A stretch of DNA of 64,000 nucleotides from Methanolobus sediminis (lineage in GTDB: Archaea > Halobacteriota > Methanosarcinia > Methanosarcinales > Methanosarcinaceae): assembly GCF_031312595.1 (NCBI RefSeq), contig NZ_CP133592.1, forward strand, positions 2,542,001 to 2,606,000, in the 5' to 3' direction. Position numbers and translations under genes: made by a program. A model generated the notes under the pieces. It saw nothing but the letters and a program-made list of their open reading frames with translations. It was not told the origin of the DNA and did no database searches. Below, piece by piece: positions 57,662-62,542 of this stretch (the first letter of the stretch is position 1; every line of letters begins with the position of its first letter).

Positions 57662-57700
57662 CAGGCATGCATCCATGCCTGCTACATTTATTTTTTAAAA
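57662..57700 (+). terminator. Operon terminator after the oxidoreductase genes
   Basis: CAGGCATG-CATC-CATGCCTG, a perfect 8-bp stem with 4-base loop (57662-57681), followed by CTACATTTATTTTTT. Confidence 0.65.
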
Positions 57701-57775
57701 AAGGAGAGATGAGATGGGTTGAAACAAAACTAAACCCGGTCAGTTAAGAGCTATATTCTATACAGCAAATCTTAA

Positions 57776-57961
57776 CTCATATTGACAGGTCCAGATTCAG
57801 GAAAGACGTTCACAAGCACTGTGAAAGTCGTAAATCTTATAGAAAATGGTCTGCAACCCGACAAGACACTTAAACTGCCATTCTCGGAAAATGCAGCAGA
57901 AATAAAAGAGGATTTAATGATCAATCCCCACGCCTGCGAAGAAGAGTTATTGAGACGATGA
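57776..57961 (+). pseudogene. Remnant of a UvrD/Rep-type helicase N-terminus
   Basis: An open frame of 61 codons without a proper start encodes LILTGPDSGKTFTSTVKVVN and then LIENGLQPDKTLKLPFSENA, followed by AEIKEDLM. This matches motif I (GPGSGKT) and motif Ia region (LIENG-x-P-E-x-I-L-x-L-T-F-x-x-x-A-A-x-E) of superfamily 1 helicases such as UvrD. The first 20 or so residues of such proteins (Q motif) and everything after motif Ia are missing. It lies between the oxidoreductase terminator and the surface protein gene and its end overlaps that gene. It is best read as a decayed fragment. Confidence 0.5.
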
Positions 57962-60900
57962 CAATGAGACCTGCCAATATTCCAAATCCAGGACTCTTCT
58001 TACCGTATCCAAAATAATGGCTTAAGTCACTGTCTTGAACCTCAACATCTCCATGCATGGCAGTGACATTCCCATAATTACTATACTGTCCGAGTTCCGC
58101 TATTCCTATAGCTGTACAGGTCATTGATTCACCTGGTTCCAGCGTTGTCTTGGGACAATTTACTTCAATCCCTTTGCTGTCGGTAACATTGATATCTATC
58201 AGATTCACGTTACCGGTATTTGTTACATTGTAAGTCCATGTAACTGTATCCCCTACAATTATTTGAGGGCCAGTTGAATTATCAGCATTCATTCCATTTG
58301 TAGATTTTTCAATGTTGATGGATGGATTATACGCATAAGAAGATATTTCTCGTTCGGCTGTTATTTTTACATTATATGGTTGATTCGGAATATTACTGGC
58401 AGGTACATTTTTATCCAAAATTAAAGTAGTACCTCCTAATGAAACTTCGAGTGTATAGGTTTCAGAGGGTTCAGCATCTTGTTCTGGAATTATTTCTATT
58501 TGGTAATTTCCTTGTTTTAGATTTGGAATTGATACAATGTCATTTAGATCTCCATCCCCATTTATATCTATTTCTCTATACGTTGCCCCCAGAATCTGAT
58601 TTGTTTGTTTTGTGATTAAAAATCCTTCTGGATCCACAACCTCTATATCTATTGGGCAACTGCCGGTAATTGTTAGTGTAGTTGAAAGTGGCAGATAATC
58701 GATATTACTCACTGCCAACTCATACTTATTCAATGGTGAATCACAAAATCCATCCTCATCTGTATCTGCATTGGTCTGGCTGAACCCATTATTATCAGGC
58801 GTTGCCCAGTAATTACCGCCTAGATATGGTCCACCTACAATATTATATTCCATCTCAAGAGTGTTCTCAATAAGCCACAGACCCTCTACTACTACAAGGC
58901 TGTCAACCTGATTCTGGAATACATCTGTAACAAGTACTCTGAATAGGATTATAGCTTCATGGTCACCAACAACTGCTTCATAATTCCATGTAGCTTCGCC
59001 GCTTCCCACATCAATAACTTCATCGCCCAAGGAGACTCCGTCCTTGGAGAATTCCATCCAGACCTTGTCGCCTTCGACAGTGATCTGCTTTATGTTAAGA
59101 GCATAGCCTTCTGGTAGCTTAAATGATGAACCTGTCCTAATAGTGTGTTTCTCATCATCATTAAGAAGCAATTTCATAGTTCCACCTATCCACATGTTAC
59201 CGGTATTGTCTCCTATAAAGTCAGTATTAACTGAATTATTGAAGATGTTGTTGTATATCATGTTGTTATTGGAATATTCCAGAACGATGCCAAAAACATC
59301 ATTGCCTGCTGCACTGTTGTTTGTCAAAATGTTGTTATTGGAACCAGACAGAAGGATACCATCATCAGCATTGAGCGATACTTTATTATTTGTAAGGAAG
59401 TTGTTACTGGAAAAACGCAAATAGATGCCAGAAAAGCTATTGTTTAATGCGTTGTTGTTTATCAACGTGTTGTCTGTGGAAGAATGCAGATAGATACCAT
59501 CCCTGTTCTTCGAAACGTTGTTGTTTGCCAGCATACTGTTGCTGGTACCCCATAGAAAGATGCCGTTGTAATTGTTGGTTGCACTGTTGTTTGTCAACGT
59601 GTTGTAGTCAGAGTAATGCAGACAGATGCCTGCTTTGTAATAATATGTAGCTCCACTTACATTAAAACCATTGATCTTCACTCCATCAGCAGTGACCTCG
59701 AAAACATGATCATTAGTCGATGCGGCAATGACATTCGTGACCGCAGCCCCATCGGTTGACGTGATATTCAGTCGTTTATCTACATTCACGTTTTCAACAT
59801 ACGTACCCGGATACACAAGGACGGTAGCACCGGGAATGGCAGCATTAACCGCTGCCTGTATTGTAGTATAGTCCGCACCACCACCGTCATCTACAGTATA
59901 GATAGAATTTCTAAGTGGAAGCTTGTCAATAGAATTAGGATCTGTGACTATGGTATAGTACGAATTACATATTCCGTCACTGTCCGTGTCATTGTGGGTC
60001 TGGCTGAATCCAGTTCCGTTGGGAGTTGCCCAGTAGTTGCCTCCTAGGTAAGGACCACCTGCTATATTGGTGCCTTCGGTCTTTGTGGTGTTCCAGACAT
60101 TGCCGGTGTTGTAACCGTAAAATTTGGCATTGACAGAGTTGTTGAAGAAGTTGTTGTAAATAAGGTTGTCGTTGGAATAATAACTCAAATAGATGCCTTC
60201 ATTGATATTTTCTGCTATAATATTATTTGTCAGCTTGTTGTTGTCAGAATGACGTAGGTAGATGCCGGAAAAGTTATTGTTTACTGCGTTGTTGTTTGTC
60301 AGCACGTGGTTGTTGGAATACCACAGACGGATACCGTACCAGCTGTTTTTTGCTACTGTGTTGTTTATCAGTGTATTGCTACCGGAATCCGCCAGTTCGA
60401 TGCCAATGTAACTGTTTTCTACTACATTGTTGTTTAACAGTTTGTTTTTGGCGGAACCATACAGATGAATGCCGTAGGTATTGTATGCTACGTTGTTGTT
60501 CGCCAAGATGACGTTATGAAGAGAAGAACCATAGATGCCGCTATCTTCACTAGCTCCACTGATATTGAAACCGCTGATTGTTACATTATCAGAAACAATC
60601 TCGAAAACATGATCATATGCCGATGCAGCAATTACGTGCGTGACCGAAGCCCCGTCGGTTGACATAATCTTCAGTTGTTTACCGACATTCACGTTCTCAA
60701 TATACGTGCCCGGATATACAAGAATGGTAGCATTTGTATTGGAGGCATCGATTGCTGCTTTTATTGATGTATAGTCCGCACCACCACTGTCATCTACAGT
60801 AACAACACCACCATATGGTGTGAGTGGACCATAATCCATATTGTCTACACCAACAACATAGCTCCCATCACAGATGCCGTCAAAGTCCGCATCATAATAT

Positions 60901-61592
60901 GTCTGGCTGAATCCTGTTCCATCAGGTTTTTCCCAACAGTTGCCTCCCAGGTAAGGGCCACCCATGATATTAGGACCTGCAGTCTTTTCGATGTTCCATT
61001 CATTATGGATATTGATACCATTAAAGCCAGCATTGACATCGTTGTTAAACAAGTTGTTGTAAATCAAGTTGTCGTTGCAGTCATAAGACAAAACGATGCC
61101 ATAATTGTAATTTCTTGCTGCTGTGTTATTTGTCAGAATATTGCTGCAGGAATTCGACAAATAGATGCCATTCCTGTTGTTCGAAATATTGTTGTTTGTC
61201 AGTTTGTTGTAACTGGAACCAAACACTTGGATACCTGCTTCATGAGATCCTGTAGCTCCACTCACATTAAAACCATTGATTGTCACTCCGTCGGCAGTTA
61301 TATAGAAAACATGATCGAATGCCGATGCAGCAATTACGTGCGTGACCGAAGCCCCATCGGTTGAGGTGATATTCAATTGTTTATCGACAACCACATTCTC
61401 ATAATACATGCCTGGGTACACGAGAATTGTATCCCCTTTAGTCGCATTGTTTACTGCATCCTGTATCGAAGTGTAGTCTGCGCCACCGTCATCATCAACA
61501 GTTATTGTAACTGCCGATGTAGTTCCTATTGTTATGGTTAAAAAAATAAAGAATGTAACTAATAATAGTATTAGACCTTGCTTAGTTCCCAT
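57921..61592 (-). CDS. Large beta-helix surface protein (NosD-like repeats) with inserted S-layer domain and C-terminal anchor
   Basis: A 1223-residue exported protein. It has a signal peptide (LLLVTFFIFLTITIGTTSAV) and three large parallel beta-helix blocks (about 28-262, 265-560 and 565-955). Each block opens with DDGGADYT(S/T)I and contains runs of NN-x-x-x-N-x-x-G-I-x-L repeats. At about 802-917, in the third block only, an S-layer-like domain (YALNIKQITVEGDKVWMEF, VVVEGLWLIENTL) is inserted between a conserved N-x-W and GGPYLGGNYW. Later come an IEVVDPEG domain and a DUF11-like Asn/Thr-rich domain (TVTWTYNVTNTGNVNLIDIN). The end SPGFGILAGLIVIVSITLL plus RRR looks like an archaeosortase-type anchor. 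Probably part of the cell envelope or a carbohydrate-binding adhesin. Confidence 0.88.
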   Translation of the reverse strand: MGTKQGLILLLVTFFIFLTITIGTTSAVTITVDDDGGADYTSIQDAVNNATKGDTILVYPGMYYENVVVDKQLNITSTDGASVTHVIAASAFDHVFYITADGVTINGFNVSGATGSHEAGIQVFGSSYNKLTNNNISNNRNGIYLSNSCSNILTNNTAARNYNYGIVLSYDCNDNLIYNNLFNNDVNAGFNGINIHNEWNIEKTAGPNIMGGPYLGGNCWEKPDGTGFSQTYYDADFDGICDGSYVVGVDNMDYGPLTPYGGVVTVDDSGGADYTSIKAAIDASNTNATILVYPGTYIENVNVGKQLKIMSTDGASVTHVIAASAYDHVFEIVSDNVTISGFNISGASEDSGIYGSSLHNVILANNNVAYNTYGIHLYGSAKNKLLNNNVVENSYIGIELADSGSNTLINNTVAKNSWYGIRLWYSNNHVLTNNNAVNNNFSGIYLRHSDNNKLTNNIIAENINEGIYLSYYSNDNLIYNNFFNNSVNAKFYGYNTGNVWNTTKTEGTNIAGGPYLGGNYWATPNGTGFSQTHNDTDSDGICNSYYTIVTDPNSIDKLPLRNSIYTVDDGGGADYTTIQAAVNAAIPGATVLVYPGTYVENVNVDKRLNITSTDGAAVTNVIAASTNDHVFEVTADGVKINGFNVSGATYYYKAGICLHYSDYNTLTNNSATNNYNGIFLWGTSNSMLANNNVSKNRDGIYLHSSTDNTLINNNALNNSFSGIYLRFSSNNFLTNNKVSLNADDGILLSGSNNNILTNNSAAGNDVFGIVLEYSNNNMIYNNIFNNSVNTDFIGDNTGNMWIGGTMKLLLNDDEKHTIRTGSSFKLPEGYALNIKQITVEGDKVWMEFSKDGVSLGDEVIDVGSGEATWNYEAVVGDHEAIILFRVLVTDVFQNQVDSLVVVEGLWLIENTLEMEYNIVGGPYLGGNYWATPDNNGFSQTNADTDEDGFCDSPLNKYELAVSNIDYLPLSTTLTITGSCPIDIEVVDPEGFLITKQTNQILGATYREIDINGDGDLNDIVSIPNLKQGNYQIEIIPEQDAEPSETYTLEVSLGGTTLILDKNVPASNIPNQPYNVKITAEREISSYAYNPSINIEKSTNGMNADNSTGPQIIVGDTVTWTYNVTNTGNVNLIDINVTDSKGIEVNCPKTTLEPGESMTCTAIGIAELGQYSNYGNVTAMHGDVEVQDSDLSHYFGYGKKSPGFGILAGLIVIVSITLLRRRGD
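59700..61365. repeat. Near-identical internal DNA repeats in the surface protein gene
   Basis: Segments around 59703-59760, 60608-60662 and 61310-61365 share stretches such as GCAATTACGTGCGTGACCGA with few differences; the last two are almost identical over about 50 bases. They mark the beta-helix blocks and indicate recent duplication or gene conversion. Confidence 0.7.
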
Positions 61593-61763
61593 ACTTGCTC
61601 CACCCTTTTAAAGAATAATGAACACAACATTTTGTGTACAAAACTGTCTGATCCGTGTACTTGAATAGTGCTTTCCTTATTTTCGGGATTCAGTTCAATT
61701 AAGATACTGTAGCTCATTGCATTAACAAGAATCTTGATAGCTTACTTTTCACTCCACAATAAT

Positions 61764-62084
61764 TCACTTGTCCTGCATTTTATTAAATGAAGTTAAAATT
61801 ATTAGATAATCATACATGTTCCCACAAGACTTTAGCCTGTCAACTTCCAGCAAAAATCTTCCAGTCATTTCCAGAGTCATATTGTTTTTCTTTGCAAAGC
61901 GCCCAGCCAGAACTTTCAAGTCTTTTCTGGATGAAAAATTCTTAGAGGTAGTATCATCAATAAAATTGAATATAATACCACATTTTTCATGGCCTATTGT
62001 TCTTGTAGAAGGACTTGCTGAAGAAGGTATATACTCTTTAAATACTGAATTTTTTACAAACTCCCCACATTCACATAAAATCAT
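61764..62084 (-). CDS. Small hypothetical protein
   Basis: About 106 residues, not recognised. It starts MILCECGEFVK and has a possible zinc site from Cys-x-Cys near the start and His-x-x-Cys (GHEKCGIIFNF) at about residue 34. It ends in a helical half with a conserved-looking KNNMTLEMTGRFLLEVDRL. The ATG 62084 follows a run of six G, a good ribosome binding site; an upstream in-frame TTG is less likely. A palindrome (AAATATAC-TGC-GTATATTT) lies about 80 bases upstream. Probably lineage-specific. Confidence 0.5.
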   Translation of the reverse strand: MILCECGEFVKNSVFKEYIPSSASPSTRTIGHEKCGIIFNFIDDTTSKNFSSRKDLKVLAGRFAKKNNMTLEMTGRFLLEVDRLKSCGNMYDYLIILTSFNKMQDK

Positions 62085-62099
62085 GTAATCGCCCCCCAA

Positions 62100-62542
62100 A
62101 TCATAAAATAAAGCTCACGCTAATCAAAAGGAGTTGTCATTGCCCCACCGCTCGCTCCTTAAATTAAATATACTGCGTATATTTTATTAACCCATTTTGA
62201 TTTAGGATGTAAAAGTATATAATAATATCCACATTACCGAATATAATTAGTATTTACGAATCAAGTGCTATAATTTTATGATTTAATTGATTATTTTAGC
62301 TCATTGGATAATTTCATATCAAATTATTTGCAAAATACAATATTGAGTTATCTTCAAAAATCATAAATCATATTATAAATTTTTAATTAAACTATACTAT
62401 TTTGTGATGATATAGATGATATCTTGTCAGAGAAACTCAATACGATTTTACAAATTTTATTTATCTAAATGATGCCAAGATAATTTATTTTAAGATAACA
62501 TTTTAATATCTTTAAGTAGCCTCTTATTATGGGAGCGATAAA
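62100..62542. other. 443-base AT-rich intergenic region
   Basis: No supported frame. A perfect palindrome AAATATAC-TGC-GTATATTT is at 62166-62184, and several TATA-like stretches occur closer to the thioredoxin gene (for example TTTATTTATC near 62459). Confidence 0.35.

Follow-up and report, generated by a model that had tools for sequence, protein, structure and literature searches.

We found that a secreted mosaic beta-helix protein of Methanolobus sediminis carries half of an S-layer domain within a turn of its third beta-helix block. The protein (P0001, 1223 aa) is encoded by a single ORF at 57921..61592 on the minus strand of the window, the whole 64,000-nucleotide stretch of DNA that was analysed. 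A structural unit, subdomain II of an S-layer tile domain of Methanosarcinales, has almost certainly been transferred into one of the beta-turns of the beta-helix. How guest proteins are seated in the closed archaeal S-layer is poorly known, and this is a natural case in which half of a tile domain was excised at structural borders and placed in a beta-helix turn, revealing which piece is an independent unit. Judging from sequence comparison, what appears to be new is the S-layer subdomain inside a beta-helix loop, while the end-to-end pairing of both modules is already known.

Layout of the host protein and borders of the insert

The 1223-aa protein belongs to the NosD-type right-handed beta-helix family. 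It matched the profiles NosD PF05048 (E 9.6e-96, 319.7 bits), Beta_helix PF13229 (E 4.3e-44, 150.4 bits) and para_beta_helix TIGR03804 (E 1.9e-61), and its repeated rungs form three blocks. For the NosD copper maturation subfamily (TIGR04247) it scored 176.8 bits, under the curated cut-off of 300. All of its features lie on the minus strand. Sequence reading alone points to a signal-peptide-like hydrophobic N-terminus (residues 1-30, 61503..61592). Profiles, motif positions and repeat comparison then delimit block 1 (residues 27-262, 60807..61514) and block 2 (residues 262-565, 59898..60809), both with an intact W-11aa-GGPYLGGN cap. The N-terminal part of block 3, placed by profiles and motif positions, runs to the conserved W (residues 565-801, 59190..59900) and is followed by the insert (residues 802-916, 58845..59189). 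Block 3 resumes, according to motif positions and repeat comparison, with the NIV-GGPYLGGNYW cap and a DTDEDGFCD motif (residues 917-970, 58683..58844). The following C-terminal region (residues 970-1088, 58329..58685) has no Pfam match and is likely beta-rich. A DUF7507 Ig-like domain (PF24346, E 1.3e-13) occupies residues 1089-1161 (58110..58328), and a PGF-CTERM-like anchor occupies residues 1200-1223 (57924..57995). This C-terminus consists of SPGFG, a hydrophobic stretch and RRRGD, and is probably a membrane anchor, with a TIGR04126 score (18.5 bits) under the cut-off of 24.5.

The three blocks are DNA-level repeats of each other, about 64-75% alike. Every block is closed by a D-x-D-x-DG-x-C-D/N motif (DADFDGICD, DTDSDGICN and, at 58683-58844 in block 3, DTDEDGFCD), and these block ends resemble calcium-binding loops.

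We compared the cap region across the blocks. N-x-W ends at W199, W500 and W801 in blocks 1 to 3, and GGPYLGGN stands at residues 211, 512 and 920, so that the W-to-GG spacing is exactly 11 residues in blocks 1 and 2 and 118 in block 3. In block 3, 115 residues (802-916) stand in for a turn of ~8 residues between the conserved W and NI-GGPYLGGN-W. At the 5' border GNMW is followed by IGGT-MKLLL, and at the 3' border LEMEY is followed by NIVGGPYLGG, leaving the cap motif intact. We also compared 22 beta-helix blocks belonging to other proteins of the family: 21 kept the W + 11 residues + GG arrangement, and none of the 22 carried an insert. A preliminary description of this DNA had reported shared motif spacing in blocks 1 and 2, about 115 extra residues in block 3 and a clean insertion into that one block at 58842-59187. 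The measured spacing and intact cap bear this out, and the coordinates agree within 3 bases. The same description had considered that the S-layer segment might occur in all blocks; it was absent from blocks 1 and 2.

Identity and origin of the insert

The insert matched PF07752 (E 9.7e-32, 110.5 bits), exceeding the curated cut-off of 30, and TIGR01567 (E 3.7e-28, 98.5 bits). A PDB sequence search aligned it with residues 100-209 of 3u2g, the M. acetivorans S-layer protein MA0829 (E 8.4e-25). These three matches indicate that the likeness to S-layer proteins is not due to chance. In the whole-protein search the match covered positions 91-209 of the 259 of PF07752 (102-209 was also given), and the 1223-aa protein contained no flanking match that would complete the domain (subdomain I plus II, ~259 positions). 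A passage of PMC9012536 describes the S-layer domain as two subdomains. By its profile coverage, the insert is one of these ("II"), the middle of PF07752, and not a whole lattice domain. The S-layer domain named in the preliminary description thus stands as Methanosarcinales S-layer homology but narrows to the middle subdomain.

We modelled the insert with AlphaFold2, using as input sequences from the window and related loci only. The model reached a pLDDT of 83, with a core around 95 and mostly within 84-96, and its first and last strands are long (3-15 and 102-119). Joint alignments of beta-helix blocks with S-layer copies placed rungs or caps over the insert and did not enter the modelling. 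Foldseek matched it to 3u2g (E 3.3e-10, TM 0.76, rmsd 2.2 Å, 41% identity), and 3u2g and 3u2h were the only matches under E 0.001. A viral structure library gave no match to the model under E 0.001; a weak likeness to dengue envelope domain I (Foldseek E 0.39) was set aside. The AlphaFold2 model of the entire block 3 was poor (pLDDT 54) and was discarded. Two of the checks proposed in the preliminary description came out in favour of the S-layer homology, the profile search by matching PF07752 as well as the beta-helix families and the structure prediction by returning the 3u2g fold.

Within the host, the repeats of a tandem S-layer protein of 679 aa shared 64% identity with the insert, and that protein itself matched MA0829 over the full domain (E 1.8e-62). 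Against S-layer tile copies it showed about 57-67% identity and 107-110 bits, while stand-alone copies gave about 20-80 bits. Because the insert is far closer to the tile copies than the stand-alone copies are, we conclude that it derives from tile-type proteins. In a subdomain II tree it grouped with L066/L052 (97/75), not strongly, and on a long branch. Its DNA was about 70-73% identical to the closest host S-layer copies, and on this ground we rejected the idea that any of the S-layer genes of the host had recently converted it. Comparison with S-layer relatives gave a dN/dS of about 0.17-0.26, and the GC content of the insert was ordinary and equal on both sides of the junctions. The dN/dS and GC values speak against a decaying fragment.

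Distribution of subdomain II and its pairing with beta-helices

PF07752 copies were listed in full for the host genome and 17 relatives. Many matches spanned just about 105-210 of the profile, with borders from ~103-113 to ~201-214. These subdomain-II-only copies occurred in stand-alone proteins of ~190-210 aa, in proteins of ~410-445 aa and in tandem arrays next to complete domains. The recurrence of similar borders supports the view that subdomain II is an autonomous module. Since stand-alone copies and a copy fused to a transglutaminase-like domain exist, the subdomain is not tied to lattice building; and as it is found alone, arrayed and fused to unrelated domains, its presence by itself does not imply lattice assembly.

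The host has two stand-alone subdomain-II membrane proteins (L013:1336-1917, 194 aa; L014:1021-2346, 442 aa), with similar ones in most relatives checked. Three large proteins (L062, L046 and L063; 1437-2061 aa) contain arrays of at least four subdomain-II-only copies; adjoining these, L062 and L046 have two complete S-layer domains each and L063 has four. A 492-aa lipoprotein-like protein (L096:920-2395) joins subdomain II to a domain that reads as transglutaminase-like from its sequence. The subdomain II of the proteins at L013, L014, L062 and L063 has borders on the PF07752 profile similar to those of the insert, but their similarity to tiles is far weaker and the subdomain is not inserted in another domain.

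Assembly into a hexagonal lattice is a defining trait of the Methanosarcinales S-layer tile proteins (MSTP, PF07752/DUF1608; MA0829, 3u2g/3u2h). The insert shares homology and fold with residues ~100-209 of 3u2g, whereas the 1223-aa protein carries subdomain II only, as a single, inserted copy without subdomain I and without the tandem repeat. The MSTP family is defined by tandem duplicated DUF1608 domains (PMC12369344), of which the 1223-aa protein has one partial copy. The known tiles, the major S-layer proteins, carry complete tandem domains (PMC12369344, PMC3361143), which argues against the protein being a tile itself.

Beta-helix/S-layer fusions such as L051, L052, L047, L048 and L055 likewise combine both modules in a single secreted protein, but their S-layer domains are complete and precede or follow the beta-helix block, with none inside the cap loop. 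Such end-to-end fusions of beta-helix blocks with whole S-layer domains were common in the genus and also present in Methanococcoides. The pairing is therefore a recurrent solution in the genus, usually in the form of fusion to complete S-layer domains. Of two related proteins from different species, L052:1683-5921 has an entire NosD block separating the S-layer domain from the PKD-cohesin part, and L066:5256-8624 lacks it; this is a gain or loss of the beta-helix module between close relatives, with the beta-helix block as the mobile part. Passages of PMC9012536 on ANME multiheme cytochromes propose that the S-layer domain places other modules in the S-layer plane, and mention one cytochrome with both S-layer and pectin-lyase-like domains. 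Those are heme proteins, unlike the beta-helix host, and the passages do not report subdomain II in a beta-helix loop.

We then assessed how rare the architecture is. In a search of 186 genomes of the order at E 1e-9, only the host matched a query of 67 residues that spans the 5' junction. The 3' junction query gave 160 bits in the host and 87 bits in the next best match, placing the junction in 1 of 112 genomes of the family. A pattern scan of genomes of 84,980 species returned ordinary S-layer copies only, and none of the 26 congeners had a full-length orthologue of the 1223-aa protein. The search for the same junction in other genomes, also proposed in the preliminary description, thus found it in the host species only. 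As other species do not share the architecture, there is no demonstrable selection on the combination of beta-helix and insert.

Possible roles of the insert and its genomic setting

Subdomain II lies mid-sequence in the tile, so its ends should be near each other; it could then take the place of the short turn that precedes the cap and leave the helix undisturbed, a geometry that we infer for block 3. The subdomain would then protrude sideways at the C-terminal, membrane-proximal end of the beta-helix rod, at a height where the S-layer could be met, and might help to seat the protein. Its most likely role would be that of a module mounted on the side for docking or spacing, with the membrane-anchored protein packing against or into the S-layer and the beta-helix blocks directed outward. 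We consider this explanation as a whole, anatomy together with a side-mounted docking or spacer module, to have slightly less than an even chance of being correct. That the insert enables such packing is itself a tentative proposal: the protein lacks subdomain I, the other half of the domain, and any tandem repeat, both of which the known lattice tile has, and docking is something we infer. The preliminary description had likewise inferred that the insert could fix the protein to the S-layer lattice. This may be so; the genus usually relies on fusion to complete S-layer domains, and in this protein a C-terminal membrane anchor is probably present already. The wider idea that archaea insert subdomain II, as a portable plug with adjacent ends, into surface turns and so seat proteins in or against the lattice without a full tile is rather unlikely; to our knowledge this would be the first such case. 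A compact construct could serve to test whether subdomain II suffices for S-layer docking and for the display of other proteins on methanogens.

The main rival holds that the beta-sandwich insert is a structurally tolerated decoration that plays no part in the lattice; it would be a promiscuous extracellular module, comparable to PKD or Ig domains, that serves as a spacer or binds a ligand (a glycan, a metal or a partner surface). We regard this as a serious possibility, and the data do not separate it from docking. Subdomain II occurs alone, in arrays of 4-5 copies and fused to the transglutaminase-like lipoprotein, the beta-helix-loop architecture is not conserved, and major S-layer proteins have the complete tandem tile (PMC12369344, PMC3361143), all of which fit a decoration; the resemblance of the insert to tile copies, far greater than that of the stand-alone copies, argues against it.

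The restriction to one species, the location of the gene in a block missing from relatives and the lack of a full-length orthologue in the congeners would also fit an accidental, nearly neutral recombination of beta-helix and S-layer genes, possibly not expressed. This is improbable given the intact reading frame and two junctions that fall at structural borders with the cap motif untouched. In addition, the ~30% DNA difference from host S-layer copies and the low dN/dS argue against a recent fragment, although the divergence may partly predate the insertion. The uniqueness of the junction could likewise reflect an assembly or annotation artefact such as a chimeric contig, but a single ORF spans both junctions, GC is the same on both sides, no S-layer copy of the genome is identical to the insert and completeness of the genome, in 2 contigs, reaches 99.97%, which makes an artefact extremely improbable.

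The beta-helix gene and a 111-aa ORF make up a ~4.8-kb block (57697..62491) that separates iorB from a thioredoxin-like gene and that six related species lack. In these six, the thioredoxin-like gene lies 114-130 bases past iorB, and the host flanks align with both halves of the spacer. A seventh relative (L090) carries a different cargo of ~3 kb at the same site, with two radical-SAM-like ORFs and a glycosyltransferase-like ORF. The variable content of this site suggests that the region past the iorB terminator is a hot spot for insertions. Near the end of the beta-helix gene, the plus strand holds an open stretch without a start codon (57785-57920, LTGPDSGKTFTSTVKVVNLIENGLQPDKTLKLPFSENAAEIKEDL), which is possibly a remnant of another gene.
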